Shown here: one piece after another, positions 28,692 through 54,714 of the stretch
Numbering within the stretch: the stretch's first letter is position 1
Layout: the number at the start of each line of letters is the position of its first letter
Assembly (NCBI GenBank): GCA_027596075.1
Contig: JADGJC010000060.1
Coordinates: 1-64,000 of the forward strand
From: Rhizophlyctis rosea
Lineage: Eukaryota > Chytridiomycota > Chytridiomycetes > Rhizophlyctidales > Rhizophlyctidaceae
Length of the DNA: 64,000 nucleotides
Direction of reading: 5' to 3'
Program-made: the position numbers and the translations under genes
Notes under the pieces: model-generated
Databases searched by the model: none
Seen by the model: the letters and a program-made list of their open reading frames with translations, nothing else
What the model was told of the DNA's origin: nothing

Positions 28692-30504
28692 CTGCTACCA
28701 CCGAAATCAGTGAATTACCATGAGGGAAGTGAATGTAGGAGAAGTGGTGGAAAAGCGGAGTTCTTACAGGTCACTAATTCTCCTCGGAATGAATCCAATG
28801 TTTTTTTGTTTGGAAGGTAATAAAGAATCGGCATTTTGAAGGTTCACTATGGTCACTTTGTACGTTATGGACAAAAAGGAAGGAACCTAGTTCATAGGCA
28901 ACTTTGGTGTGGTGAGGAAGGTGCGGGAACTGGACCCGCCGGTTCACTTTTTCGCGTTTCGAAGTGTTCAAGTGTTCCAGCACCCCAGTGTTCCGTGTCC
29001 ATGTCTTCCGGACATTGCTCACCGTTTTGTGGTTCATAAAATGGAGACTCCTTGTGTATGGATTGTGGCTTGTCGGCATTGGCGAGTTGGCTTGTTTGTG
29101 GCACTGTCATCATCCCACTGGATCCGGATTAGTGTGGGTTGTGACCAAGTCGTTTTTGCGTCATCACAGTTGTGACAGGCAGTCAAGAGTTCTATTACTT
29201 GTCGAAAGTGCAAATTTCGAACAATATCAATTGGTGTTGTTGAACACCTTGATTGACGCGTTACTTATTCAGGAGGTGCATACTAAGTTGCTCAACTTGC
29301 ACCATGACGCAGAAAAGGAAGCGGCGCGAGTTTCGTGGTGACAGTCCGGACCGTGTCTGAATTGGATATGCCACTGCATGAGTGTAATAGCCGTGAATGA
29401 CAAAATATCAGCAATCAACCAAGACATTGTTATCCATTTCCGACCGAAAGACTTTACTTCAACTTACCTCATCTGAGATCACCTTCAGTCATCAACCAAA
29501 GGAAAGATTATGCTTCAACGTGCCGAAGTGGATCGGCCAAAACCCAAGTTTACTTCGCTTCACTCTGACTCTGCCCCAGGAATACATCTGCTCCACCGAT
29601 GTTGATCAGTTCGTCGAGTCCATGCGTGCATGGCATGGACGGTTGGTTTCCGCACTTCCCTCACTTCCTTTTTGCGAAAGGTACTCGTTGCGTGGATCTC
29701 AGTATTCAATTATTCGATGTGTACCATAGCGGAGTCAGCATCCCTATGACAGTCATTACTGTCCATTCAGTCCGGGAGCCAGGTTACTTGCGAAAAGAAA
29801 GCGCGTTTATGAAACGTCACCCAGCGCCTAAAGGCCGTGCATTGCGGGTAAACCCAGAGACCAAGACTGCGAGGATAGTCGAGTCGGATTAACTTCTTCG
29901 CCCATGCATCGAGTCGGTAAGGAGACAAGGTCATTGATACCATTGGTGCGAGCTTCCGTCGTAAAGGTGCGGGGCTCATATCAGCTCTCGAACCTTTTTC
30001 GCCATCCAATCCTGCTTGGGGTTCACTGGCTTGACCCGGGATGGGGAGATTAGGTGCGGGGTTGGGTTGCTTCGTTTCCCGAGGTAAATTCCTCCATCAA
30101 GGAGCGTGCAAGCTGCGCGTTGTCCACAAGTACGTCTGCTGCAACCGCAAGCATCCAGCAACAAAGGCGATTGACTGTGCTCAGGGATTGTTCGGATGTC
30201 GAGAGCCGACGTTGAGGGTTGGGCATAGCAGAACTTGTCCGCGATGAGTCAAATGAACATCGGACCTTCGGGCAATCGAAGAAAGTATGCGAAGCGGTCA
30301 AGCAATCAGATGGGAGAAGGGCGTCGAAACAGGTAAGGTAGTTAAGAGAGGTATTTTGTGTTCGTGAAAGTATGTGTTGATGCCGGGATTGTTGAGAATT
30401 TTCCGGGATTCGATAACTCGTCGTTGGCGGGTCTGAGCAAGGTACAGGTTACAATCTAAATAGAGTGAAGCCATCCGCTATTTTTGTCCTTGCCAAGAAC
30501 GTCT
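28692..30504. other. Intergenic, 1.8 kb, contains one dispersed-repeat copy
   Basis: No gene recognised. Several short frames exist on both strands (for example plus 29397-29729), but the best lie inside the repeat described separately, whose second copy is full of stops. It looks like decayed DNA. Confidence 0.5.
29565..29960 (+). repeat. Dispersed repeat family 1, copy 1
   Basis: It shares ordered similarity with 32830-33200: ACTCGTTGCGTG.ATCTCA, CAGTCCGGGAGCC, GAAGGCCGTGCAT.GCG and a C/T-CGGTAA.GAG.CAAGG end. Both copies have the same orientation, about 3.3 kb apart. Copy 1 holds a 97-codon frame, but copy 2 has stops in every frame, so the original content is unclear. Confidence 0.75.
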
Positions 30505-31027
30505 GCGTTGTTTGATATATAGCTCATGGACCGATGCATGCAAATCGTTTACCCGCAGCTCTACAAACACCTCAAAGCGAAACGATTGGGCGCTAAGCTT
30601 TATGCTTTTCCATGTGAGCAATCAGTGCTTTGACCCATTCAACAACAGTCGAGCACGCTTTTGTCATTCTCACTGACCATTTTGATCCCATCCCTGTCAT
30701 GTCAATTACCCTTTCAGCAATCATGACTCTCTCAGCTTGCACGCCTCCGCCATCCGCGCGCAAGAGATCATCTCAATAACACTCCAGTTCGTCCCGCAAT
30801 TGCCTGAGGAGGTGTATGACATGCTCGTGCAGCATCCGTACGATCCTTTGATATATCAAGCCATTGTGGTGGAACGAGATGGGGATGAGGAAGATGGTGG
30901 GGTAAATAAAGTTGGTGGTGGGTTTGGCAGTAGGCTAGGGGGGCAGAAGCGTGGATGAAAGCCGGCATGGAGGGAAGGAGGAGGACGAGGACTGCGACGT
31001 GGATGGGCAGAGTGAGCTGGTTTCATA
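30505..31027 (+). pseudogene. Truncated duplicate of the BUB2 gene
   Basis: Near-identical to the last three exons of BUB2 at 25887-26636. LMDRCMQIV.PQLY.HLKAKRL is followed by the retained intron (GTGAGCAATCAGTGCTTTGACC). The start of the next exon (IMTLSACTP) then jumps directly to the final exon (AIRAQEIISITLQFVPQLPE). About 235 bases of the parent (26110-26344) are missing. Intron retention shows a DNA-level, not RNA-mediated, copy. It lacks the N-terminal two thirds and the catalytic part of the TBC domain, so it cannot encode a working GAP. Confidence 0.9.
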
Positions 31028-33893: not shown

Positions 33894-35224
33894 TTAATTG
33901 CGGTGGTGCAAATGAGACCTTGACATCATCCTCAATTGTCCTCCACCTCTTCGGCTGCCACCGCCACTACCAGCCGTGCCGGACCCACTCCTCCCACTCG
34001 TCCCCCCACCCCCAGTAACCCGCTGATCAACCTCAACACACTTCTGCCCCAACGGGAAGTTCACACCGGCCTGATCGACGGAAATAGACAGCTGTTCCCA
34101 CCAAATCTGGGAATACCTCCGCGGCGTCCGATAATCAGCATCCAATACGGATAACTAAAAGAATTCAAACTCGCATCCTGCATTGCCACACCTGCAAAAT
34201 TGGGGTAGCTTTTTATTTAATACTACGCCTTTATTGTAGACTTTGACAGGGTCGATGTAAGTCCCCTACAGCAGCCTGCACCCATGGAGGGTTCGTGCCA
34301 GGATGGGAGGCCGACAAGGATGGGGATGGGTCGTGGGAGGGAGGAAGACCAGGATGTCCATTTTTGGAGGGTGGACCAGAAACCCGGGTTGTTTACACCC
34401 CAGCCGCAGATGTTGGGGGAGGCGGTGAAGCAGGGGGTTATGTAGTCGAAGGTGGTTGGGGTTGAGGTTAGAAGTGCCCCGGGGACGTACGGGCCAGGCC
34501 GAAAGGTTACATTGGGGAAGTCGCAGCGGGGTGTTGCTGGTAGGTGAGTGGGATGATGATGTGTGGGTTAGTTGGTAGAGCAGTAGGTCTGATTGAGTAG
34601 GGTAATTTACCAATGAGATAATAGGTCCTTGCACTGTCTCTCGACATGAGTTGTCGGAATTTCGTTACAAATGGGGTGTAATAAGGCTGTAATAACCATA
34701 CACATCGTTATTCCAAATATACACATCAACACCATCCAAGACCGCATCACCAAATGGGCGGTACGTCGTGGAGCCACCCAAGAATGTATCGAACACATTC
34801 GTGGCAGAAAGTGTGGCATTATCGGTCGAGAGAAGATAAACTGATGGGGCTATGTTGTGAAAACATCAGTACAAATCCTCAACCGGAAGGTCGAACGCGC
34901 CCCACCACCTACATATAGAAATCAAAAACTTCTTCCCCAACCCCTGACACACCTTCACATCCACCCCAACACCCACACAACTCAAACTCTCAAACCCATA
35001 CTTTGCCTCGGAGCTTGGATACGCCGCTCACTTATTCGTTGGGTACCTGCAATGGTAATTAATCCACCGCCGGGTTGCCCTTGATGTCAAAGTGGAGTGT
35101 CATGAATGACAGGTGGTAGATTGTGTGATTGGTGGTTTGGCAGAAGGTTGCGAGGGAGGGTTCTTGAAGAGAGGTGTCAGCGAATCGGGAGGAGGGGAGG
35201 TTTTGGCCCCAGTAGAGTTTCGAC
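33894..35224 (-). pseudogene. GH18 chitinase pseudogene
   Basis: On the minus strand, pieces in order match class III (plant/fungal-type) GH18 chitinase: KLYWGQNLPS, LATFCQTTNHTIYHLSFM, VDVKVCQGLGKKFLISI, LGGSTTYRPFGDAVLDGVD, SRDSARTYYLIG, CDFPNVTFRPGPYVPGALL, NICGWGVNNPGFWSTLQKW and ILVGLPSWHEPSMGAG. They are broken by at least three frame shifts (near 34670, 34270 and 34135) and in-frame stops. The catalytic DxxDxDxE reads DGVDVYIW at about 34713-34736, so the third Asp and the Glu acid are gone. A C-terminal Gly/Ser-rich tail (GGGGTSGRSGSG) remains. The enzyme would cleave chitin; this copy cannot. Confidence 0.88.
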
Positions 35225-35737: not shown

Positions 35738-38400
35738 ATGCCCTCCGCCATCTTTACTGCAATGATCGTGCTGGCGCTCGTATGCGTGGTCTTTCCCACG
35801 CGGGCAGCCGCCTTCGGTGCCGGCAACATCCCCTCCCTCTCAGAGTTGGAAGATCACGCTTTCCGACACGGAGATATTGAGGGTGGGCTTCCAGGGTTGA
35901 GGGAATTTGTGCTGAACTTCGGAAACTGACAGTTCCGTTATTTAGATATCTTGGCCCATATCGCACTTTCTTCCGGCGCCTTCGGACTCATTTCGAAGAA
36001 GTTCAAAGGATTGGACATTAAGCGAGTCTACTTCGGTAAGGTCTGCGAGCAGCCAGTACTGGAGGCTTTCAAACTGATATCGCTTGACGGCATAAACAGG
36101 AAACTGGCTCAGAGACTACTCCCAAGCAATCGACGTTGGAGCTCTGTCAAAAGTCAACAAGCAGACCCTGATGACTCTAGTAACCGTTTTGGGCTTCCTC
36201 GCCTTCAACTACGTCACGGAAGAATTTGAAGTGACGGAGCAACGTCTAGGATGCTACCGCGCCGAAGAACATATCGATAACCCAAAAGGCTATCCAGAGG
36301 ATGCCCAAAGTTATGATTCCCGTTTACGTGGTCCAGTAAATCCACGCGAACTCGAAATTGATCCTCGAACCGGCCTGAAAAACTATATCGCCAACGAACA
36401 AGGCGGATGGGCAACCTCCACTGCCTACGTCCGGCGATCCATCGAAATGTCCGTCCAAGCCGCACGTAACAATGATCAATATGAAGCTTTCCGGTGTTTG
36501 GGACAGGCGCTCCACACTTTGGAGGACTACCCGGCGCATAGCAATTTCGTAGAATTGTGCTTGATTGAGCTGGGCTATAACCGCGTGTTCCCTTTCGTCG
36601 GCGAAAGCACTGCCATCAGACAAGGGCGTAACGGCCCCATCTACCCCGTCATTACCGGAACATTCGGTGCAGCCGACTTTGTCCACTCCCTCCTCGGCGA
36701 AGCAACCGACCACGCCTCCCAAGCCTCCATCACTAACGTGAATGCCAAATTGGCAGAAGCGGAATCAGGACGTTCGGTTGGCGATGACGAATTGTTGAAT
36801 CTGTTGGGGCAGGTCCCGGGCATGGACGATTTCTCGAGGGAAATCAGAAGTGATGAACGGACCAGGGCGGCGCCGAATGCTTCTCCTGAGCAAATTAGGG
36901 GCGAAATATGGAAGTGGTTGGTGCTCCGTGACCAGATTGTGAAGAAGGTTGATCAGATCATTGCGAGTATTCCGGGGTTGGAGTGGCTTACGGAGAAAAT
37001 CAGTGAAGCGATCCAATTGTTCATTTGGGGAAAACTGGAGGTTTGTGTTATTTCTTTGTGGTATACGTCCAACCATGAAGACATATGATTGAGAATGGTT
37101 CGATCTTTCAGCCTTATTTGAGACCCATGATTTCCGAAGTTGTCAGCAAGCTGCAGTCTGCCTCGTCCGTGATTGTTGGTCAGGACACGCAAATGGAAGT
37201 TTTCAACAACCCGCGCTGCACCGATCCCACGCACTCGGTGTTGTCTAAGGATCATTTCGATTTGTACTTGAACGAGGTGAGTCTCGCACTATGCTTGTTC
37301 CCTGTCTATAATAAACTGCCAACTCACACCCACCCAAAAAGCCCGCAGGCAAAGTAGCCAAATACATTGTCCAAAACGTCGTCCCCGCCGTCGTCGCCGC
37401 CTGGTCCTCCGGCAACCCCTCCGACGCCGTCCGGATGGCCATGGAAGTCTTCGTCCACCCCGCCGACATGGGATTCCAAAAATCGCAATTCCAAATGGGG
37501 ATGATCAACGTCGTGCGCGAGTGGGCGAACGCCAATAGGGACGCGATCAATCATTTGGATAAGGGTAGTGTTATGGCGGGGAGGAATAAGAAGCATCCGA
37601 CGGGGAGTATTGGGGATATGCCGCCTTTGAGTGCTTTGCCGGGGCAGTTGGGGCTTACGCAGGCGCCGGGGAGGAGTGGACCGGGAGGTGGGGCGTCTTG
37701 GCAGCAGCCAGCGCAGCAGCCTCAGTATCAGCAGCAGCAGCAACAAGGGTACGGGCAGGGACAGGGATATTCTGGTGTTTCGCAGGCTCCGACTCAATCA
37801 CAATACGTGGAAGGGTGGCCCTCTGGTGGGACTGCGGCACCGTCACGTCCAGTTCAGCCGCAGCATGGGCAAGGTTACTCCGGCGGAGGAGGGTTCACGG
37901 GCATGTCGCAGCAGCCTCCGGTGCAGTCACAGTACGTAGAAGGCTATCCCGGCGGAGGACCCCAAGGAGGTCCGGGTCACCACCACGGCGGAGGCCCCCA
38001 AGGCGGCGGCGGCGGCCCACACCACCACCACCAACAGCAAAACGAAGGAGGGTACCCCGGCAGCGGCTCCAACTCCTACTTCCAATCCGGCCCACCACCA
38101 CCTCAACAATCAAACTACTTCGAAGGCTACCCCGGCGGAGCACCTTCCAACTCGTATTACCAGAACCCGCCACAACAAGGTTACGCTCCCCCACCCGGTC
38201 CGCCTCCACCACAAGGATACGGCTTCGCGCCGCCGCCTGGCCCGCCGCCTCCGCAGGGTTACGGTGGACCAGGCTTTGCTCCTCCTGAGCCTGGACCGGG
38301 GCAACCGCATGGGTATTACGGGACGGCGAGACCGTCGCAGGGGCCGCCGGCGCCGTATGGAGGTTACCCGGGTGGATATCCGGGCAATTACGGGCGCTAG
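35738..38400 (+). CDS. Het-C-like secreted/membrane-associated protein with Gly/Pro/Gln-rich tail
   Basis: Exons 35738-35882, 35946-36035, 36100-37040, 37112-37276, 37342-38400; 799 residues. Signal peptide MPSAIFTAMIVLALVCVVFP... then FGAGNIPSLSELEDHAFRHG and DIKRVYFGNWLRDYSQAID, the Het-C family opening. QALHTLEDYPAHSNFVELCL resembles a zinc-phospholipase-like His/Glu/Asp pattern. From about residue 558 the chain becomes repeats of YVEGYPGG/GWPSGG and PPPGPPPPQGYG. In Neurospora, het-c allele mismatch triggers heterokaryon incompatibility; homologues elsewhere have unknown housekeeping roles. The repeat-rich tail also matches the family habit of a Gly-rich C-terminus. Confidence 0.92.
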
Positions 38401-40196: not shown

Positions 40197-41124
40197 ATGC
40201 CACCTCTCTCCAAGATCTTAGTCCCTCGATCCCTATCTACCTTCTCCATCCTCCGCTTCATACCCTCCCGACCCCTCTCAACTCCCGCCGCCACCTCCTC
40301 ACCTCCCCGTCCCTCCTCCAGACTTCCCGGCCTCCTCCTAGCCTTCGTCGCAGGAGCAGCCGCACCAACCTACTACTTCTACACCGAGCGGAACGAACTA
40401 GTTCCTTTCCACACGGACGACGAAGAAGCCGCCCATGCGGCACTCCTCGAAGCAGAGCGGGACCAGCACGAAATCGTAAAGCAACTGCGACAAGATAAAA
40501 ACCTACTAGAAACAGATCCATATTCATATTTAGACGGCGGGCGGTTACACCGGAACTTCACGGCGGGGCTTTTGAGGGGTAAGGGGAAGGTAGGCTTACT
40601 TCTCGGCATTCAACAGAATTCCTACTGGGATCAGACCTGTTGACACTCTTTGTACACAGTTCGCCCTCCGCCCAGCTCTTTTCCATAACGAAGAGCAAAC
40701 CGAGATCACAGCCGTAATACACGTTGGATCCCGTATGTGCGGACACGACGGCATCGTACACGGCGGTGTACTATCAACATTAATGGACGAGATGCTCGCT
40801 CGCGCGGTATGTATTCCCACCTCGACCGTCGCGTAACCTACTCCCCCTCTCCACAATACACTAACCCACCCCCACCAGACTATCCCCTCCCTCCCCAACG
40901 GCATGGGCTTCACGGCAAACCTAAACATAAACTTCCGCAAACCAGTCAGCAGCGACCAATTCCTAGTACTTCGTTCCCGCCTAAACAAAGTCGAAGGCCG
41001 GAAGGCCTTTGCCGAAGCATGGATCGAGTCCGTAGATGGCAAAACCAAGTTTGTAGACGCGACGGGGTTGTTTGTTAGTCCGAAGTCCATCCTATCGCAT
41101 CTAGTTCGGTGGAGACCGACGTGA
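40197..41124 (+). CDS. Mitochondrial hotdog-fold (4HBT) acyl-CoA thioesterase-like protein
   Basis: Exons 40197-40589, 40660-40806, 40879-41124; 261 residues. The Arg/Ser-rich start (MPPLSKILVPRSLSTFSILR) suggests mitochondrial import and is followed by one hydrophobic helix (LPGLLLAFVAGAAAPTYYF). The hotdog core shows CGHDGIVHGGVLSTLMDEML, with the HGG and Asp typical of THEM4-like thioesterases, and NLNINFRKPVSSDQFLVLRS as the second sheet. The likely reaction is hydrolysis of acyl-CoA in or at the inner membrane. Substrate unknown. Confidence 0.85.
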
Positions 41125-43329: not shown

Positions 43330-43543
43330 GGAGCTCTGCGGTGTGTGTAATATGCGTTCGAGGTTTTCGGGTCCTGTACTACACACGATCCTTTTTGGAC
43401 GTGCGTCTTTCGCGACCGCTCATGAAAATGGGTTGGCCGAGTCATTGACATGCTCACGGGCCGGTATGGACGAACCGTATCGGATTCTGAGGCGCATTTT
43501 GCGAATCATCGTATCTCCAGTCTCTGTTTCGCGAGGTGGTGTG
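43330..43543 (+). repeat. Repeat family 2, copy 1
   Basis: Shares GGAGCTCTGCGGTGTGTGT, CCTTTTTGGAC, TTCGCGACCGCTCATG, GAACCGTATCGGATT and ATCGTATCTCCAGTCTCTGT with copies 2 and/or 3. It is followed within a few bases by copy 2 in tandem. Confidence 0.8.
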
Positions 43544-43555
43544 TAATGGTGTCAT

Positions 43556-43965
43556 CTGGATGGGTTCGGGTCCTGTACCAAACATGTTCCTTTTTTTGGA
43601 CATGCATCTTTCGCGACCGCTCATGAAAATGGGTTGGCCGAGTTATGACTGCTCACGGGCCGGTATGGACGAACCGTATCGGATTCCTGAAGGGGGCACT
43701 ATTGCATATCGCACGTCTCTGTCTTAAAGTCGCCTTTCTTGCGGTCCTACGTCTGCAGTCGGCAGCAAGTTTCGCAATCTGGAAGACTGGAATAGCCATC
43801 AGTCAAAAGGGGGTAGCTGCGTGATCGGGTTATCTTGACAGGTGTACTGATTATCGATTTCATGTGCACGGTTTGTTCCGCACGAAGTTCAAGACCCTGG
43901 ACCGGCACAGGGGTGACGTTTGTCGGCCGTAACGGAAGATTTTTCTCCAGGTGGGTGTTCAGATA
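43556..43965 (+). repeat. Repeat family 2, copy 2
   Basis: Starts TGGATGGGTTCGGGTCCTGT and repeats TTTCGCGACCGCTCATGAAA and CACGGGCCGGTATGGACGAA from copy 1. It ends with CAAGACCCTGGACCGGCACA and GGGTGACGTTTGTCGGCCG, a tail shared with copy 3. It lies 1.4 kb upstream of the cullin fragment and copy-A gene. Confidence 0.8.
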
Positions 43966-45407
43966 ACGTCAGGAGGTGTCGTTCCCCAATATACTAACGC
44001 CCTCCCATGCAGAAGTTTTCAATTGTATATGTCCCTCAATGCTGTCACTCAATGCACTACATACGAGAATATTGTCGTCTATGATGTGTTTTATAAAATA
44101 GTGCAATATATGTTTGCGTGTTTGTAATGTCAAACAGTTTTTTCTCCAATATCATTGAGGTCCATCAGAATGCATCCCTTGTGTTGCCATGGAAACTCAT
44201 CAAACGATATGATACATGGAAATTTTAGCGCCTTCCAAGTAGCCAATGTTGAAGTTGACATTGGATGTCAACTCTGGCATAGTGCCGTTGGTTGGTCCTG
44301 CAACTCCTGCCTCTTTGCAGAACTTGCAGACTGCTTCCTGGCAGGTCTTGGTGAAACCAACTCGCATCCAACAGTGTTCTCTTCCGTGCGCAGTATCATT
44401 CACATACTTCAGCATTGACAATATCATATGAGATATTAGTGCTGATAGCACAAAGCGGTTGCTGTGTGGGTAGAACTCTGAGCTACTCTTAGTGGAATTT
44501 GGAATGGGAACTGGTGGGTCATTTTGGTATGCGCACTGCGCACTGTGCGGGTGTGAGAGTTTCAAAGTTTGAGGTGTTACTATGTGTAATTGCACCCTCG
44601 ATTCAGAATATGAATGGGCTCCAAGCTCCGGAAGGCCGGCAAGTCGGGCCGGTATTGGTGTGTGACAACGTGTTCATTCATTTGGTGTCATCTAACAAAG
44701 CTTTGACGAATTGGCTGTGGACTGTCAGGTGGTTGTGTGTTCCAGCGCACTCATGACCTCAATCTGCCAACACCTCCCATACTTTCGTTCGCCAGACAGC
44801 AACCTGCCTACGATAGCTCACCCGGAGACCTCGATGCAAACACGCTGATAAACCTGCAACAGATGCACATCGGTAGCATGCTGGCGACGTGGATAGAGGG
44901 ACGGTCGCAGGAAGCTTGCCGACGGTAAGTAAGTCGCAGTCTTTCCAAGATGGCTCGAACCTTGTTGGAAGAGCACGCGAAGAGCTGACTCAACCGCTAA
45001 TGGTGACAGAAAGACCCCACTTGTTCCTATCTATATCTATCATATGACCAGTTAGTCCGCACGCCTCCACGACCGGTTGGCAAGCAATGGGTCTTTCTGT
45101 AATGGGTAAGTTTTTTTCGACTATGTTTACATTCTAGAGGAGCTGGTGGAGGACTTGGCAGTGTGTTTACACGCTAGTGAATCCATGTAAATTTCTGGAT
45201 AGGTTAGGGCGTGGCGCCCATGGGGCCAAAAAAAAATTTGTGTTATGTCATCATGTGCACCAATTGATTGACCATGACCATCCCACCCATAAATCAGGAC
45301 TTGTGTCCCTCAGTAACTTCGCCCTGGATCTTGAAGAACAGGCTATTGACTAGCGGTTTGGGTGCAAGCTTGACACTTCCTTCGCGACATTCCTTGAAAT
45401 CTTGTCT

Positions 45408-45787
45408 CTAGCGCACTTGAGCAGTCCTTTGGATCTGGAGCAGATGAGTGGTTTGGAGGAGGGGCTACAAGGCATCATGACAAACTTGGAAGGCGGCATG
45501 AGCTATGGCAAATACATGGATCCGTACACGTAAGTGCGCTGTATGGCGGAAGTATTCCATAGTCGGTGCCCGACTAACATTGTCTCGGTTCGTAGCTTGA
45601 TTTGCAACTACTGCATAAGCAGCCGGATGCAGACTGGTTTCACCGAACCCCTTGGCGCAAATGCAACAAATCGAGGCAAGTCTGATGAATGCTCTGTTGC
45701 GATGAAATTGTGAAAAACGTATTAATATGGGTTTCAGGAGCGAACCTGATGGGTGCTGATCTGTATAACAAATTGAAAGAGTAGGGT
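45408..45787 (+). pseudogene. Cullin N-terminal fragment (exons with in-frame stop)
   Basis: Three exon-like blocks bounded by GT-AG signals read LDLEQMSGLEEGLQGIMTNL / GGMSYGKYMDPYT, LICNYCISSRMQTG and ANLMGADLYNKLKE. These match the fungal CUL1 stretch around the YMxLYTxVYNYCTS motif and the following LYNKLKEY helix, with MDPYTLICNYCIS showing decay. The last block runs into TAG where cullins have Tyr. The frame then continues without a shift into the APC3-like sequence of the next gene. A cullin scaffold needs far more than this, so it is a fragment. Confidence 0.8.
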
Positions 45788-45805
45788 CAGGCGGAAGGAT
45801 GGGTG

Positions 45806-48800
45806 ATGACGGCAAAAAGGAGAAACCCGAGATCTTTCAATGCGTGGTAAGACTCAAACTTCTTGCGAACAAGGACGACAACCTCCTGAACTGATCCCTC
45901 CATCTGGGCAGGTATTCGCTCGGACAAGTATACTTCCCACGAAAGAAAAAAGAACGAGCGCTGCTGTGCTACGAGCGAGCCGTGGAGCTGGATCCTACGA
46001 ATCCCCTTTACTGGCTCAGGAAAGCGTTTGTGCTGTTCCTGATGGAAGAGTTTCAGGCAAGTTGACCGTCACTTATCATACTTCTTGATTCCATCTTCTC
46101 AACATTCACCACACATTAGGCCGCCCTCCAATGCCTCAACAAAATCGAATCCGCATCCAAATACGAAGTCAACATCCACATGCTGCAAGGGAGGGTCCAC
46201 ACGGCTCTGGGCACCAAGGACGAGGCGATGTTGGCTTTCACCAAGGCTCAAGCGTTCACGAAGGACCCGAATGTCATCAAGGACACGATTAATAGGTTGG
46301 AGCAGAATGAAGAGAGTTTGAAGCAGCATGTGGATGAGATCAGGAGAAAAGCGAAGTTACACAATGAGGAAGGACTGCTGACCTACTACACCAAAGAGTG
46401 GACGCGCTTCACGACTGCCAGTACCCTCGTGCATCACATCTCTCGGTACTTGAATCGCCATTGGGTCAAACGGGAGATCGATGAGGGTCACAAGAACATC
46501 TACGACATTTACACGGTATGGCACCACGCATCGTTTTCCATTTTATATGCGCAGACGTCTGACTTATGCATATGTTAGCTGTCTCTGGTATCGTGGCGCG
46601 ATCACATGTTCCCCGCCTACAACTACTCCTCCACCACTTCCTCTACGACAATCACCCCTTCCACCGGTCTGAACCGCAGCGCAAGCGGTCTTCCTGCGCT
46701 GCTGGACTCGCAACACCGAGAACTCTACGAGGCAATGTCTTCCTCGTGCGACAGCAAAAGCACCAAAAGCCTCTTCCCCTCCACTCCTTCGTCCGACTCC
46801 GAATCCAAGGACACCGCTCCACACGCACCATCAACTCGACCTCGTCCCCGCGTATACAAAAGAGCATACACTTTCGACGACTGCATCCGCTCCCTCGATA
46901 CCCACCAACAAATGAACATGATCAGTTTGAAGCTATCGAAATCGAACCTCTCTGAAGACGGTGACGACATTGACTTCGCTTCACCAATGGAGATTGAGGA
47001 TGGCTTGCGGCAGAAAATTCGTTTGTCACCGATCGGGAAGGACTTTCTGGTGAGCGCTCCCATCGATACAGGAAAGACCTTCGACGGTACAGCTGAAGAT
47101 GCGCAGGTACGGTTGCGATCATTTTCAACGTCTACAATGTATCATATTACTTAACCCCATTGTGCATCTACAGAAATCGGTACCCGCTACTAAGCGACGA
47201 ACCCCCTTCTCAGCCAAACCGACGTGGCCCAGCAACAACACCGCCCTCCCCTACAAGTCAACAAAAGCATGCATCCACACCTCCACCCAAAAGCGCCGCT
47301 CAACGACACGACATCGCAAGTCGCCCTCCATGACTCATTCGCAAAACCTGATGGGCTCCCCACCACCACCACCCTCAGCATCCTTCCAATGCCCCGCCTT
47401 ACCCACCCGCACCAGAGAAGCCCGCACTCCACCGCCCGGTCCGCGTCCCGTGATCCTGTCCCCACGCACCATCCGCGGGGATCGCCGTCACAAAACCATC
47501 TCGGCCCTTGAGGCGCGGTCGGCGAGCCCGGAATCCATGCTAACGGTTAGGTTCATAACGGGAAATGAAATTTGCGTCACCGTCATTGACGGTATGACGA
47601 TCGGTGATCTCAAGGGGGCGATTGAGGTTGGGGTAGGGATCCGGCGGTCTGAGCAGAATGTTGTTTGGGGTGGGAAGGTTTTGCATGATGGAGTTGTGTT
47701 ACCGGGTGTGTTAGGTGGTCGGCAAGTTCTCACCCATCCGTTTCGTTGCAACTCATTTTGTTTCCATTCTAGGTTATGACCCGGAGACGCGCGTCTACGT
47801 GGTTCCAACATTATGCGGCGGTGTCGACGACGAGTACGACGTTTTCAGCGTCCATCTGAATGGTCTGCAGGTTGTGAGGGAGATGGGGGATGTGCCCGTC
47901 GATGTAAGTATGCTTGCAAAATCCGAACCTGCACTGGTTGTTCTCATTCTAATCCTTCTTTCAAACTTAGCGGGCGTACAGTGTGCTTTGGACCCACACG
48001 GGTGGAGACCGTCACGCCGACATCATCAGTTCACTGCGTAACGCGTCGAGTGTCACTCTGCGGCGAGAATTGGCCCCAATTTCAAGTCGTGTGGGTTCCG
48101 GAGCCGAGACATTCATCGCGTTCGTTTACGTTTTTGGCAATCCGACATACGTCAAGAAGCTCTTAACGCGGCACGGTGTTGTGCGCGTGTGGAATGTTAA
48201 GAGTTTTGAAGGTATAGAATCACCCATTTATGTAGCTGCCCGCGACGTCCTCCCACACTTTTGATTCACATTCCTGACACCATGTTCCCCACTTTATTTA
48301 GCATTGGAATTGCAAAAGAGATTCGGACAAATGGGCGGCGAGAAGCGGAAGTGGGTGGACGTGATTTCACTAACTGATGAAGAGGTATATTATCTTGATT
48401 TTCCCCTCTGCGCCTTTGTTACACCTGGTGCTGACTCAATGTCAAATGCAGCGAGATGAAGTTCGTCGCCGGAACTATGCATTTGTTCTTCCCGCTGTAC
48501 ATGCTCGCGCGGTTAAGTTGCTGGATCATTCGACGCAGGAGAGGGAGCGGGAGAAGAAGGAGGAAGAGGAGAAGGAGAGGGAGAAGGAGAAGGAGAGGGA
48601 GAAGGAAAGGGAGAGGGAGAAGGAGAGGGAGCGAGAGGTGGCAGGGTTGAGGAGTCGAGTGGCGGAATTGGAAAGGAGGCTTGAGTGCCCCCTTTGTCTG
48701 GACAATACGCCCAATGCGGTGACAGTCTGTGGGCATATCTCATGCCAGGAGTGTTTGAGGGGGCATTTTGTTAGGAATGGAAGGGTTTGTCCTATTTGTA

Positions 48801-48847
48801 AGAGGACATTTGGCCAAGAGCGTGCATACTTCCCACTTCATATCTGA
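45806..48847 (+). CDS. Chimeric APC3-TPR / cullin / UBL / coiled-coil / RING protein (copy A)
   Basis: Exons 45806-45846, 45912-46056, 46120-46515, 46579-47106, 47174-47714, 47773-47903, 47971-48211, 48302-48384, 48452-48847; 833 residues with every phase consistent. Residues 1-128 resemble the last TPRs of APC/C subunit APC3/CDC27 (PRSFNAWYSLGQVYF, NPLYWLRKAFVLF), missing about 30 residues of the normal protein. Residues 129-205 are a cullin segment (LLTYYTKEWTRF, YLNRHWVKREIDEGHKNIYD, LSLVSWRDHMF). Residues 206-490 are Ser/Pro-rich. A ubiquitin-like domain (492-570) precedes a middle domain shared with copy B. A Glu/Arg/Lys coiled coil (732-780) and an intact C3HC4 RING follow (CPLC...CGHISCQEC...CPIC, 781-822). 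The RING predicts E3 ubiquitin ligase activity. The second intron is GC-AG. The upstream start is uncertain. Confidence 0.75.
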
Positions 48848-51585
48848 GGTGAAGAATATACGGCATTCATTTCGAGGACACACTCCAAGTTGCAGCGCCC
48901 AGAACTGCTGGAAATGGTTTTTACCCATCGCGTGGGTTTGCGACGGAAGAAGTTCATACAAAGGAGAAGTGACCATTGTGCTTCTTAAAGAATGTTGTTA
49001 CGCACACTTGCGCATCATGACTGGACTTGTGTTCCCAACGTTTCCCTGAAAGTGTTTGCTCGACAATTGTTCCGTCTGCAATTGTCGAATGGTCAAAAGA
49101 GATTCCCCAGTTGACATGGCAATTGTGGCACAGCAAACTGCACCACCCAAAATTACATAATCCGCGTGCCTATTATTCACTATGACTCACGCAGTGATCC
49201 CATTCATGTGATCCTCGTATTATGCAATTGATTGGCGTCATTCCCAGAGCCAAACAAACTGCACAGAAAAAGGAGTGCAACCCCCCAACCCTCTTCCCCT
49301 CTTCTTCAGTTTCCAAAATTCACTCCTATCAACCACCACCCGACATCAACAAGACAAGTCCACACAAACCGACTTGCCAACAACAACAACAACATTAACA
49401 CACAACACTGCAAACTCCACAAGCGACAGGTCCACGCTCGTGTCGTCGGTGAGCCCACTTAGCCATGAGGCACCTCTGCGGTTGCGGAGACGAACAAGTG
49501 CGGTTCATCCCTTCACCAGCGTGTCGATTCCACTGTCTGCGTTGGAGGGGTTGGACAGCTAGCGGATCTGCGTGCGGTGTACCCCAGGTCGTCACTCATC
49601 CGAAAGGGGCCGCGGTTGCGGTAACATACGGGTGGCGATCATGATACATCGTCGTATATCTCTAGTATTCGGTGGTGTTTTGAGCGAGCTGTGCCATGGT
49701 TGGGTTTAGTTAGAGGGGGTAGCCAGCTCAAGGAGGTAGATAGAGGAGCTCTGCGGTGTGTGTCATGGTGTATCTGGATGGTTCGGGTCTCATTCCTACC
49801 CCTCCTTTTTGGACGGGCGCCCTTCGCGTTCACCATTAAATTGGCTGACCGTGTTCTGCAAGTGCCGCGTTGCTTTCCCGCGGAATGGTTTGACTTAACC
49901 GTATCGGGCTTTGAAGGATACATCATTGCTAGCATCGTATCTCCAGTCTCTGTCTTTCCTTGCGATTCTACATTTTCGGTCATTGGAACAATGGGAAAGG
50001 ATGGGACAGCACGACAGGAGTATTCGCGCGTTTTGATATTGTTGACTTGTGTGCTCACTATTGTTATCAGCATCGCGCACTCGCGAATAAACCTCAAGAC
50101 CCCTGGACTGACACAGGGTTGACGTTTGTCGGCCGTGACTGGATGCCTTCTTGAAGGTGTGTCTCCGTCGTGGTATAGAGTCATTTTTCTGCCATTTTAA
50201 CTTAGTCTTCAACAGATGAGGAAGGTGTCTCGACAGATGTTTATGGCAATCAGAGCGATGGGATTTGTATTAATATACTGAATTGATGTATATGAATGTA
50301 TTCAATTGATGCGCATGCACATATAGCCTTTTGACTTTGACTTGACATGAGGAAAGGTTCCATGAAGCCATTGAACTTCAACAAAAGGTACACACAGGGT
50401 CCACGTCCACAACCAACAAGAATCGACTATGTCAGCCCTCATGGCTTCCCCGTTTTTGTGGATGATGCAGCACCACATAGGCATGCCTCATGCCCATAAA
50501 TTGGCAAGACAGCGCGCGTTTTGAGAGTCTACTCCATCCCAACTTCCCAAGAGACCTCACTGATAAACCATTGCACGTGCATGCAGCTTTATAGAAACCA
50601 ATGCAGCTATAGGTATATGACATCAAGCCTCCCAAAATGACCGAAATGTAGGAATCAAGCATGTTGCAGCTGGTCAGTTCGGTCGGTGTTCCCCATGCTC
50701 CGGACCAACATGCACCACATACAGGCAGGCACTATCAATCGTTCTAGAGGATGATTGATTACAGTGCTCGCCATTAGTTTGTTAAGGATCCTCTGGGGTA
50801 AAAAGGAGATGGAAGTGTCGACAAAGTACAACAGTCAGTAACAGTCGGGGCCCCGGAGCCCCAGGGGCCCAGCAGCTTCAAGTTTCAACGAATCAACCCG
50901 AGATACTGGGTCTGTGGTGACGCTGTTGGGCCCGAAACTCTGGTTCATGGTCGTGACTCGTGAACGCTGAACCGAACACGCCAGGCCTACCGGCCTGTGG
51001 CATACACACTGTGCCATGTGGCACGAAGTCTTGAATTGATATCGAAAATCAGCTTCGGTGTGTGCAAAATGACAAAGTCGAAAGCACAGGCACACGCGAC
51101 AAAATTGGGGCTGAGGGATGATATGAGTGCGAAAGTTGTGAAGCTTGCCCTCTCTCCCTCTCTTCCTCTCTCTCCTCCAAACCAGAAGTTTGCTTGACTT
51201 TTAATAGACAAAACCATCTGGCCGTTCCCGCAATAACACCCACGCCGCCTACGAATATACAATAAACAATAATATGATTGTTAGGCGGATAGATTGGAGC
51301 CTGGTGGTGGGGCTTGGGATCGACGAACCCGGCCGAGGTGATTATCAAATTCATGGGAGGAACTCAACTGCGCTTTGGCTGACGTTATTCCTATTCATGT
51401 CGATCCGCTGCTCACCTCTTTCTACAAAAATCTTCGGGCCCTGATCTCTTCCATTTTCACTCCAACAAACTGTCCACTCTGTGTGCATTCTTCATCAGTT
51501 GACCTCCGACCGTAGCTCACTCAGAATCTTCACCGTTTCATTAGCAAAACAAAAGGATCCATCACCTCTGGGTGCCAAGTCAATC
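48848..51585. other. Intergenic, 2.7 kb, with repeat family 2 copy 3
   Basis: Between copy A and copy B of the UBL-RING genes. Besides the repeat there is a Thr/Ser-rich plus-strand frame at 49275-49562 and a 143-codon frame (49691-50122) that overlaps the repeat. Neither has recognisable domains. Nothing is noted for 50.2-51.5 kb except the copy-B promoter. Confidence 0.5.
49740..50165 (+). repeat. Repeat family 2, copy 3
   Basis: Same order of blocks as at 43.3-43.97 kb: GGAGCTCTGCGGTGTGTGT, ATCTGGATGGTTCGGGTC, CCTTTTTGGACG, AACCGTATCGGG, ATCGTATCTCCAGTCTCTGT and finally GGGTTGACGTTTGTCGGCCG. It lies 1.4 kb upstream of the copy-B gene, the same relative place as copy 2 before copy A. Confidence 0.8.
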
Positions 51586-52054
51586 ATGTCGGCCGGTGTA
51601 GCGACTCCCCCTGCCAAAATCCTGCCGCAAAAGAACCTCAATGTACGCCTGATATGCAAGAGGTGTCAAGTGCCTACGGAAATCGTTGAGCGATTTGCGG
51701 AAGGGAGCGTGCTGTGTGGGGAGTGTGGTAGGTGTCGATTCGTCAGCTTTGAGGAGATTACGGTATGAGACTGATCAGAGACTGACCACGCCATTCCTGA
51801 CACAGGACTTGTTCTGGGAGTTCATATCATCGATACCCGGTCAGAATGTACTTCCGCCAACTTCGAAGACGGCGGCGACGACCCGTCTCGTGTTGGAGCA
51901 GCCGGCGACCCACTCCTCGGGGGCATCAACCAGCTTGAAGCCACCGTCATCAGCGCACGCGACGGCTTAGGATTCACACAGGATCTCAGCCGCATCAACA
52001 ACAAAATCCAAGGTCAACGCCAAGAAAAGCATCTCGCCCAAGCCTTCAAACACA

Positions 52055-52095
52055 TCCAATCCATGGCCGAACACATGAACCTCGCCAAAATCGTC
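52055..52095 (+). repeat. 41-base direct repeat, left copy
   Basis: A perfect 41-base match to 52870-52910, coding QSMAEHMNLAKIV of TFIIB. It marks the left edge of an 815-base insertion in the TFIIB part of copy B. Confidence 0.95.
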
Positions 52096-52869
52096 ATCGG
52101 TGCGCACATACCGGCCGTGGAAGTCAGTTCGAAGATGATGAACCAGATGGTGGTGAATTTGATGAAGAATGTTGAGAGTCCTACTTCCACCACGACGCAA
52201 CAACAGCAGCCAATGGATCCATACCTTGCCTACCTCGCCTCCCGCCAACCGAAGCAACGCCTCAACCTCCACGCCTCCGACGAAAGCGTCTCAAACTACT
52301 GCTCCCTCCTCCGCCCTCTCCTCCGCCTCGCCCTCGACCACCCCTCCATCCTCTCCGCCACCCACGCCAAAGTCCACTCCTTCCTCTCCCGCGATTTGAA
52401 ACGCCAAAAAGATAACGTCCCGGATCTCTTGTGCCGGGCGTGACGTGGAGGGACATGAAGGACGCGGTGTTTGAGGAGTTGTTGGCAGGGAATGTGGTGT
52501 GGTATTGTAAGGAGAGGCCGCATTTGGCGTGGGTGGAGGATTGGGGTGCGGAGTGTGATGAGGTGAGGTATAAGGAGACGTTGGAGGCGAGTAAGATGAG
52601 TTTGAGGTTGTTGATGTTTCAGGTGTACTTTTCGAGGAGTGTTGTTGGTGCGGCGCATGGGGATGGGAAGAAGCAGGATGTCGAGATGGGCAAGAGTGGG
52701 AAGTTGGGCCAGAGTGGGGAGTCGAGCGAGACCGCACAGCCTGGACCGAGTAAAGGGACGACGCACGCAAGGGATGAGGAGGACGGGTTCACGACTGTGT
52801 CGCAAAAGAAACGCGAAAACCTCCCCTCCGCCACCACCACATCCACCACCCCAACCACCATCCCAGCCC
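52096..52869 (+). other. Inserted coding module inside the TFIIB part
   Basis: Sequence between the two 41-base repeats. It reads as protein: MMNQMVVNLMKNVESPT, RLNLHASDESVSNYCSLLRP, KRQKDNVPDL, then in the next frame VPGVTWRDMKDAVFEELLAG, NVVWYCKERPHLAWVEDWG and SLRLLMFQVYFSRSV. A charged linker returns to TFIIB. I do not recognise the family with confidence. The conserved-looking amphipathic blocks suggest a third captured gene fragment. The internal frame break near 52430 shows decay. Confidence 0.6.
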
Positions 52870-52910
52870 TCCAATCCATGGCCGAACACATGAACCTCGC
52901 CAAAATCGTC
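52870..52910 (+). repeat. 41-base direct repeat, right copy
   Basis: Right-hand partner of 52055-52095. TFIIB continues from here (VVDSTKQIYKLVDEDK). Deletion by recombination between the two copies would leave uninterrupted TFIIB sequence. Confidence 0.95.
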
Positions 52911-54714
52911 GTCGACTCGACCAAACAGATATATAAGCTCGTCGACGAGGACAAGACTTTCAAGGGCAAATCCCCGGAAGCCATCGCCGCCGCCTGCATC
53001 AACATCGCCTGCCGACAAGACGCAGCAACGAAAACGTTCAAGGAAGTCTGCGGTGCGAACAAAATCCCCAAGAAGGAGACTGGAGGTATTTATGGAAAAT
53101 TGCTAAATGGAAGCACATTTGAGATTTCGTTGATGCCGTACGTTATGGGCAACGACTTTGTGGTATGTTTTTGTTGAACTCCTGTATGCGAGTGCTTGAT
53201 TTACCAGATACTGACTTTTCTGCTCAAGATCCTTTCTACCAAGCAACTCAAAGGATGCATCCGTCGGTGCACTGGCATGGCGGAAGAAGATCAACATATC
53301 GTGCTGAATGGAAAATCGCTCAAGAATAATAACATTTTGTGAGTTTTGCTGAGCAGACATGTCGGTTGCAAACCATTTGCAATATACATTGATGTTTTTT
53401 CTCTCTTCACTAGCACTTGATTTGACGGTGCCCGTCTCGATGTACATCATTCCTACCTTGATTGGTGGCGTGGACTCTCTGTTTGACGTTTTCGAGAGTT
53501 CTTTGAAGGACTTGCCGCTTGTTACTGGGTTTATTTCTGAGGTCCAGAATGTAAGTTCTCTGATGTTGGTGCAACAAGTTTGTAAATGCTGTTCCTCATC
53601 ACATCCACCTCTTATATCATTTCAGTGGGTCTATGGGGTGGCGTGGAGGGGTGGTGCAAAAGTGCAACACCATATTATGGTTCAGCTGGCCAATGTTAAG
53701 GAGGTTCAATTGGTGCGCAGCTCGGCACCGATTACAACTCGTAATTCGACTTCGGAGGAACTGACGCTTGCCTTTTTCGAAATTACTGGAAGTCCTGCTA
53801 TGGTGAGAAGAGTTCTAAACCAATACGGGGATGTACGGGTGTGGGCCCTGGAAAGCGTTGAGGGTAAGTACAATCCGCATTTGCCTTCGAATCAAAGGGA
53901 ATCATTATACTTTCATGTTCTCAACTTTGGACAACATTCCCACATACAGATCTTGAACTGCATAAACGGTTTGCTCGCCTAAGGGGTGTCAAGAGGAAGA
54001 GGGTTCAAACTCCAGTGGAAGAAAAGGAGGACAAGAAGGGTAAGATGGAGAATCCTCAAGCAGTTGCAATGGCAAAACAGAATTTTTGGAATGCATTTTT
54101 GACTCCTCATTGGTCAACAGAGCCGACATCCAAACACAACAGCACAACATACTCCACAGGTCTTTTGGAGTGGGCACGGAATGTCGCGTTGAAGTTTTGG
54201 TTAGTCAAGAAGCTTAGGAGGGAGAAGGAGGTGCGGTATCTATTCTCGCCTTGTCTGCGTTTGAGGTCCCAGAGCGCCTTGTACTGATATACATCACAAT
54301 AAACAGGACGTTGGGGAGGGAGGGGAGGGGGAGGTGGAGTGGTCTGAGGACATTGAGCGAATAACGGAGAAGGCAATACAGGAGCAGAACGTAGCGGAGA
54401 TGGAGAAAGTAGATGCGGCCTGGGCAACCGCCCGGGCAATGAGGGAATGGCGAGCCGTTAATCGGAAGAGGAAAGACCTCGAGCAGGAGAGAGAGGAACT
54501 GAAGATGATGAGGAAGGAGGTTGAGAAGACACGAGCGGCACTGCCACGATGTCCTATTTGTTATGAAGCAAAGCCGACCGCCGTTACAGATTGCGGTCAT
54601 CCCTTCTGCAAGCCCTGCATTGCAGCCCATCACGCCGCACAATCAGCAAATAACGGGACGCCAACCGGCCCAACTTGCCGAAAGACTTACACTTACCACG
54701 CGTTGTATTTGTAA

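Follow-up and report, generated by a model that had tools for sequence, protein, structure and literature searches.

The window analysed here, the whole stretch of 64,000 nucleotides of Rhizophlyctis rosea DNA, contains two tandem genes, copies A and B, whose C-terminal halves are related (34% identity in the alignment of A with B) and follow the same order: a ubiquitin-like domain (UBL) with a conserved terminal Gly-Gly, a middle domain belonging to no recognised family, a coiled coil and a RING. A PTLxGGVD...DVF motif is common to the two copies, as are the coiled coil and the RING, in agreement with the original prediction that all four parts are shared. These halves, which we call the native parts, are located as follows.

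47540..48847, plus strand: native part of copy A; UBL from ATG 47540, ending LCGG, then middle domain, coiled coil and C3HC4 RING
47540-47705, 47773-47903, 47971-48211, 48302-48384, 48452-48847, plus strand: exons of the native part of copy A
53118..54714, plus strand: native part of copy B; UBL ending LIGG, then middle domain, coiled coil and a RING whose seventh ligand position holds Gly

In the alignment, the RING of copy A reads with all eight C3HC4 metal ligands and exceeds the Pfam cut-offs of zf-RING_2 (27.8 bits, cut-off 27.3) and zf-C3HC4 (23.3, cut-off 21). That of copy B lacks one of the eight, the seventh ligand being aligned with Gly, and is still over the cut-offs of zf-RING_UBOX (26.5, cut-off 25.2) and zf-C3HC4 (24.4, cut-off 21). 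The ubiquitin-like domain is identified by a profile match and the C-terminal Gly-Gly; for copy A the PF00240 score straddles the cut-off of 25.4 bits, with 25.8 in one scan and 22.2 in another, and PDB ubiquitins align as far as the Gly-Gly, while the UBL of copy B, having no Pfam ubiquitin match, is recognised solely by its alignment with A. It had been suggested that the two genes belong to a fungal E3 family with exchangeable fronts; however, an exon-by-exon search for the UBL-middle-RING half gave these two tandem genes only. In protein databases, where for part of the searching the 7999 candidates sharing most words were scored, no relatives of the half were found beyond two weak matches (6e-5 and 4e-4), which on reading are driven by the coiled coil. 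A low-complexity stretch at 48537-48649 has a BLAST match to the contig of APC3, which is treated as chance.

The N-terminal halves are of a different nature. Judged by nucleotide alignment, the 5' ends of both genes consist of parts of other genes, copied as unspliced genomic DNA and arranged as follows.

45411..45783, plus strand: CUL1 piece 1 (N-terminal exons, two introns), from C602:218874-218498, 86% nucleotide identity
45777..46315, plus strand: C-terminal TPR piece of APC3 (CDC27), from C6, in two blocks of 80% and 89% nucleotide identity
45782..45784, plus strand: in-frame TAG at the CUL1/APC3 join of copy A, codon 71 of 909
46318..46617, plus strand: CUL1 piece 2, from C602:218496-218197, 87% nucleotide identity
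46619..47539, plus strand: the greater part of a one-intron, uncharacterised ORF, from C59:91430-90509, 93% nucleotide identity
51565..52099, plus strand: TFIIB piece 1 with ATG 51586 and one intron, reaching from the zinc ribbon to where the first core repeat begins, from C144:8484-9014, 88% nucleotide identity
52100..52869, plus strand: insert of about 770 bp splitting TFIIB; blocks 52217-52323 and 52470-52660 match C495:14853-15332
52870..53083, plus strand: TFIIB piece 2, from C144:8970-9183, 92% nucleotide identity

In copy A the pieces thus run in the order CUL1-APC3-CUL1-C59 ORF. The APC3 piece sits inside a CUL1 exon and is without 156 bp of its donor at about 45970, with the frame kept; after it CUL1 resumes with one donor base unaligned between pieces 1 and 2. 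Weak CUL1 similarity also extends slightly upstream of 45411. Over this front, TPR/ANAPC3 and Cullin exceed their Pfam cut-offs, and the one exon of the C59 donor ORF that was scanned has no Pfam match. The copied DNA stops immediately before ATG 47540, which is probably the native start of the UBL-RING part. Copy A reads as a single frame of 909 codons across all five joins, the TAG at the CUL1/APC3 join being the sole stop before the end, and of its ten introns (eight GT-AG, two GC-AG) six fall within the captured DNA, where they are aligned with introns of the donors.

In copy B the intron of TFIIB likewise aligns with that of the donor, and the insert is flanked by a 45-bp duplication, since 52870-52914 repeats 52055-52099 with 44 of 45 positions identical; the stretch 53084-53117, between TFIIB piece 2 and the native part, has no assignment. 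Two frame breaks are found, one inside the insert (about 52416-52440) and the other a phase break between the exon ending at 53338 and that starting at 53414, at the UBL/middle boundary. We term them apparent, because unusual splicing could still open the frame: at the boundary 169 combinations of GT/GC-AG sites would do so, those among the 40 listed all needing a second poor site and changing the UBL, and in the insert 641 single-intron choices of 45-1000 nt would (the 25 listed being those shorter than 130 nt), none with a donor in the nine common hexamers. Copy B looks to be decaying.

The original prediction, which had matched APC3 plus cullin in front of A and TFIIB in front of B and had offered capture, different in each copy, as a possible explanation, is borne out by Pfam and by donors that are still present elsewhere in the genome. 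Of the pieces in A, however, the C59 ORF and the earlier of the two from CUL1 had escaped it, and B additionally holds the C495-related insert and the duplication; its interval opens at 43330, while the captured part of A begins near 45411. Five donor loci (C602, C6, C59, C144 and C495) are matched by the two fronts, and the donor genes have exons that run beyond the captured parts. For comparison, one control stretch of 13 kb from the same window gave four matches, two of them off the contig (C235, C49), with three of four candidates scored, and a second gave two (C63, C146), with two of three scored; the unscored candidate in each is probably the locus of the query itself, since that locus is missing from the matches. 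The idea that host exons had been picked up is not supported, as the CUL1/APC3, APC3/CUL1, CUL1/C59 and TFIIB joins fall inside exons. A processed retrocopy is excluded by the donor introns kept in the CUL1, APC3, C59 and TFIIB pieces.

The divergence of the pieces from their donors was examined in seven captured segments, some with trimmed edges and with the insert of B, which holds one of the breaks, left out. Their exons differ at 163 of 2320 bp (7%) and contain three indels, each of 3 bp, whereas their introns differ at 99 of 441 aligned bp (22%) and contain 19 indels, 16 of which are not multiples of 3, intron gap counts varying with the alignment. In these alignments the exons have kept frame while the introns drifted, and, since exon indels are few and all of 3 bp, the frames look guarded. 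The same differences, being measured from the only donors found, rule out that the junctions are assembly joins.

We propose that A and B are old tandem UBL-RING genes whose fronts were captured at the DNA level and selected in frame, an explanation to which, taken as a whole, we give about an even chance. The ancestor would have been a gene for UBL(Gly-Gly), middle domain, coiled coil and RING, and an old tandem duplication would have produced the two copies. The captures would be later than the duplication and separate in each copy, because the exons are 7% diverged from their donors and A and B are only 34% identical in amino acids; at least two steps per gene would be required, because the pieces are nested. 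Each step was presumably a duplicative, non-homologous insertion of genic DNA by repair or by replication template-switching. In templated insertions and in template switching of the MMBIR type, short pieces of distant loci are brought together at a single site, where microhomology is slight or absent, usually as single events; A and B resemble them in the pasted distant pieces and differ in needing at least two rounds per gene. The translated fusion would then have been maintained by selection for some time, and copy A may still be made, starting from ATG 45806 past the TAG or through exon skipping; the other candidate start in its front is ATG 45444.

It is also possible, if rather doubtful, that the mosaics were never useful: error-prone repair would have pasted fragments before two RING genes, the fronts would now be decaying leaders, and the UBL-RING part from ATG 47540 would be the sole product. 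The TAG in A, the two apparent frame breaks and the altered RING ligand in B agree with this, and so does the ratio of Ka to Ks between chimera and donors, which ranges pairwise from 0.28 to 0.80 and, pooled by hand, is about 0.45, close to the value for a neutral copy compared with a constrained parent. In CUL1, furthermore, the changes specific to A are rich in replacements (12 replacement, 6 silent), those specific to the host gene being 3 and 7. Other CUL1 copies point the same way: the piece at C72 is plainly dead, with two frameshifts and three stops in 306 exon bp, and the CUL1 part of a CUL1-XPO1 mosaic at C52 has an early TGA. The C72 piece, however, is more diverged (43 of 306 exon bp) than the CUL1 of A (33 of 476 exon bp), so age confounds the comparison of their frames. 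Against a useless by-product stand the complete lack of frameshifts in the 2320 exon bp of the seven segments, compared with 19 indels in 441 bp of intron, the single frame shared by the five joins of A, and the frame at C52, which is open through the joins, running on from exon 2 of CUL1 across XPO1 and into an unrelated ORF of 314 codons. With such an in-frame mosaic standing before another ORF, capture is not confined to the UBL-RING genes. The aligned codons are free of stops, where 4.8 would be expected if all changes occurred in the chimera and 2.4 if half did, which by itself is weak evidence of constraint; the frame constraint could also be older than the capture, provided that the donors were paralogs, already diverged and under constraint.

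A second alternative, that a Helitron-like, Pack-type or repeat-marked element brought the fragments and landed 5' of A and B, has a slim chance. Pack-MULE and Helitron captures retain introns and form multi-gene mosaics, and plant and animal elements bring together same-sense, intron-bearing pieces of several genes, products that the fronts of A and B resemble. Capture at the DNA level, shared by A and B, is described for Pack-MULEs (PMC8277862), and in the setting of PMC4289320 Helitrons are stated to capture gene fragments frequently. Moreover, a dispersed repeat, X, is found 5' of A, of B and of the C52 mosaic.

43330..43955, no strand assigned: partial copy of repeat X upstream of copy A, without coding signal by eye
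49279..50158, no strand assigned: repeat X upstream of copy B, with relatives at C16, C190 and C52 and short matches at C184 and C392

As the capturing element, however, X is unsupported: in the flanks of its copies at C16 and C190 (about 5.3 and 4.5 kb compared) nothing matches the window, C52 or CUL1. The copies of X at these two loci adjoin ORFs named by eye as RAD54-like and glycosyltransferase-like. The only inverted pair of at least 30 nt spanning the locus (40872-40905 with 54304-54337, 79%) is of low complexity and its right arm lies at the start of a B exon; the 45-bp duplication flanks just the insert of B and not the whole captured front. No element gene was found in a scan of ten ORFs of the window, comprising 8 of its 33 ORFs with at least 190 aa and two shorter ones, and at gathering thresholds the window gave no match to Rfam. 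A search of the genome for the Helitron RepHel domain (PF14214) was silent, as were all its controls. For the suggestion that the genes are cargo of an element, no element was identified, and, unlike Pack-MULE and Helitron products, the fragments show no element ends of at least 30 nt and no element genes in the ORFs scanned, are nested in exons and continue the frame of a resident gene, which they join close to its ATG or exactly there. Finally, it is very improbable that a donor promoter, 5' UTR and start codon were the useful part and the coding pieces passengers: the outer pieces, from CUL1 and TFIIB, are indeed 5' ends, and all three CUL1 copies (A, C52 and C72) start no more than about 75 bp from the ATG of CUL1, but the aligned TFIIB block reaches only about 21 bp before its ATG and the starts of the CUL1 blocks vary between 75 bp upstream and 12 bp downstream of theirs, too little for a promoter, and none of the APC3, C59 and XPO1 pieces is a 5' end.

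Returning to fronts captured and selected in frame, the least certain step is function. The fusion may act as a putative RING E3 whose front is the docking part of one of the cell's hub proteins (the CUL1 N-terminus, the APC3 C-terminal TPRs, the TFIIB zinc ribbon and core), and it would compete with the parent protein or mark the parent's partners or mimics for ubiquitylation. Precedents are TRIM5-CypA (TRIMCyp), in which the new targeting part gained by a gene of the RING E3 type is a copied housekeeping protein (PMC4378998, PMC4936896), and plant NLRs with integrated decoys, in which an immune receptor carries fused copies of host proteins that may serve as baits (PMC11611257). On sequence grounds A and B would be comparable to both, being RING genes that carry copies of housekeeping proteins and whose fronts, as copies of the cell's own proteins, are possible baits. 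TRIMCyp, however, gained one retrotransposed gene at the C-terminus, whereas A and B carry nested, intron-bearing pieces of several genes at the N-terminus; the TRIM order (RING, B-box and coiled coil from the N-terminus) is absent, as in A and B the RING follows the coiled coil and the 25 listed of the 33 Pfam families for A include no B-box, and, unlike in plant NLRs, there is no NLR domain. It is unlikely, though conceivable, that the two genes keep acquiring parts of the cell's own hub proteins (SCF, APC/C, TFIIB) and use them, in frame, as baits at the N-terminus. They would then be to a fungus what TRIMCyp or NLR decoys are to their hosts, built by DNA-level patching, and the bait might be cut from the RING at the UBL Gly-Gly.

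The mosaics of A and B offer a datable case of new genes made from unspliced pieces of core genes, in which donors, introns and breakpoints can all be read. The first copy reads its patched front in one frame and illustrates how copied fragments build new protein combinations, and the parallel in-frame CUL1-XPO1 mosaic at C52 suggests that the process is recurrent. If the fusions are translated, hubs of the ubiquitin system would have been turned into parts of RING proteins.

The front of copy A, one of two tandem genes ending in a ubiquitin-like domain (UBL), a middle domain, a coiled coil and a RING, consists of pieces copied from CUL1, APC3 (CDC27) and the uncharacterised ORF of contig C59, whereas the front of copy B carries TFIIB and an insert. 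The window comes from contig C535 (168,176 bp) of a 44.1 Mb genome in 634 contigs.

Captured pieces in the fronts of copies A and B, with identity to the donor (copy A: nucleotide identity, DNA search)
45411-45783, A, CUL1 piece 1, 86%
45777-45972, A, APC3 block 1, 80%
45968-46315, A, APC3 block 2, 89%
46318-46617, A, CUL1 piece 2, 87%
46619-47539, A, C59 ORF piece, 93%
51565-52099, B, TFIIB piece 1, 88%
52870-53083, B, TFIIB piece 2, 92%

In the donor a single base separates the two CUL1 pieces (C602:218498 and 218496), which places the APC3 insertion within a CUL1 exon; the APC3 piece lacks 156 bp of its donor between two TPR-coding stretches. Adjoining blocks overlap by 7 and 5 bases at two joins of A and by zero at two others, values blurred by later change. 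The C59 copy ends at the base preceding the ATG at 47540, which is probably the native start of copy A, since the methionine opening its UBL coincides with ubiquitin Met1. In B, 770 bp separate the two TFIIB pieces. One 45-bp donor stretch (C144:8970-9014) is present twice, at 52055-52099 and again at 52870-52914, with 44/45 positions identical between the two, so that either the insertion duplicated it or the template switched back by 45 bp. The insert matches contig C495 in two blocks (79% and 82%), where one ORF of the donor has no Pfam match. Scanned exon by exon, the donors retain domains beyond the captured parts (cullin and neddylation domains in CUL1, the N-terminal domain in APC3), and TFIIB has both core repeats.

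The shared half of the two copies is 34% identical in an alignment across UBL, middle domain, coiled coil and RING. In a PDB search UBL residues 3-73 align with ubiquitin 4-76, as far as Gly-Gly, and the UBL is thus seen to end in both copies in L(C/I)GG, followed by VD. The best 60 of 304 PDB matches are only ubiquitins, ubiquitin fusions and ubiquitin-like chains, none to the middle domain, which gave no Pfam match when scanned as part of the whole proteins and no NCBIfam match for its central exon (47971-48211 in A; 53626-53863 in B). The aligned RING of A has all its ligands, and in that of B the seventh is Gly. Two genome searches (16 and 8 matches) found no UBL-middle-RING half beyond A and B; matches elsewhere fell within the query's RING or UBL, except a 31-residue match within the C59 donor.

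Copy A can be read as a single frame of 909 codons including the final stop, in 11 exons (45444-48847), whose sole internal stop is a TAG at 45782-45784; it is open from 45800 to the end of the RING. Its 10 introns are all short, 8 GT-AG and 2 GC-AG. The GC-donor introns (GCAAGT) lie at 45676-45737 in captured CUL1, where the corresponding host intron likewise has a GC donor, and at 46057-46119 in captured APC3. The two halves of copy B are each open over long stretches and are not joined in one frame by a plain exon model.

Apparent frame breaks in copy B
about 52416-52440, within the insert
UBL/middle boundary, the exon ending 53338 and the exon starting 53414 being off by one in phase

Seven captured segments were aligned to their donors, a set that excludes the C495-like insert of B, the 45-bp duplicate in its second place and the blurred APC3, C59 and CUL1 edges. 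Exons (2320 bp) showed 163 differences and 3 indels, each of 3 bp, and introns (441 aligned bp) 99 differences and 19 indels, of which 16 have lengths not divisible by three. These exons hold no frameshift, with dozens expected at intron-like indel rates, and aligned codons no stop, where 4.8 would be expected with all change on the side of the copies and 2.4 with half of it there. Pairwise Ka/Ks was 0.42 and 0.31 for the CUL1 parts, 0.32 for APC3, 0.56 for C59, and 0.80 and 0.28 for the TFIIB parts (the last in the coding frame, off2, of three frames run). CUL1 changes polarised with another copy, on contig C52, comprise 12 replacement and 6 silent in A and 3 and 7 in the host. Taken together, these data suggest that the frame was guarded and the amino acids rather free to change, with the caution that an identical contrast between exons and introns would result if the donor had diverged under constraint before it was captured. 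The constraint, if real, is by now lost or partial, given the TAG in A and the frame breaks in B.

Further CUL1-derived sequences were found elsewhere in the genome.

CUL1 pieces outside the window
C72:28587-29003, third copy of the CUL1 5' piece
about 2053-4098 of C52:32500-38500, CUL1-XPO1 mosaic, a second mosaic in the genome

The C72 piece has 43 differences, 2 frameshifts and 3 stops in 306 exon bp, and is more diverged than the CUL1 parts of A (33 differences in 476 bp, no frameshift or stop). At C52 the CUL1 5' piece (80%) is joined, via a CUL1 intron, to a piece of XPO1 82% alike to C323 (PDB match exportin-1, 1.6e-10). The best matches of the XPO1 pieces are fungal exportin chains; together with the Het-C gene of the window and the short introns, they are consistent with a fungal genome. 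The XPO1 piece stops 13 bases short of the ATG of an unrelated 314-codon predicted ORF (MAHQTHQ...), and counted from CUL1 exon 2 the three form one open frame, with an early TGA in the first CUL1 exon and one 3-bp deletion. In A as at C52, the captured chain thus appears to stop directly at a resident start codon or a short way upstream of it. Two 13 kb control stretches of the window showed no mosaic: one matched C235, C49 and two places on its own contig, the other C63 and C146, with one candidate unscored in each.

A dispersed repeat (repeat X, 0.5-0.9 kb) occurs at 49279-50158 and 43330-43955 and on C16, C190 and C52; its longer matches are 71-81% alike, with a well-conserved 45-base stretch close to the 3' end, and the copy upstream of A contains a tandem duplication (43366-43487 and 43565-43686, 199-base period, 91% identical). 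The window also holds a local duplication (25863-26629 and 30499-31021, 78-80% alike) close to a TBC (Rab-GAP) ORF, a Het-C gene at 36096-38397, and at 33968-35215 a sequence with a 76% copy at C235.

As to origin, a spliced-RNA source is ruled out because donor introns are retained, and intron-mediated shuffling in A and B because the joins lie within exons; the CUL1/XPO1 join at C52 falls in introns. Element tests, which were weak, found no mobile element. Our preferred explanation is duplicative insertion by a non-homologous route in the course of break repair or replication, which would have hit the same place repeatedly, and after which an open fusion would for a time have been selected for. 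All six pieces of known coding strand are in sense orientation (CUL1, APC3 and C59 in A; TFIIB in B; CUL1 and XPO1 at C52), for which selection for an open frame would account as well as any mechanism.

Among the matches listed in the open-licence PMC literature on chimeric genes in chytrids, Helitron-captured fragments in fungi, TRIMCyp and gene capture, exon shuffling and new genes, integrated decoys with E3s, template switching and chytrid UBL-RING proteins, no title or opening of an abstract reports a UBL-RING mosaic of this kind. It is quite possible that the fusion is a decaying by-product. The CUL1 N-terminus (SKP1 side), the APC3 C-terminal TPRs and the TFIIB ribbon/core are binding surfaces of hubs; since the captured parts are such surfaces, a role of the fusion as bait or competitor would be a natural reading.
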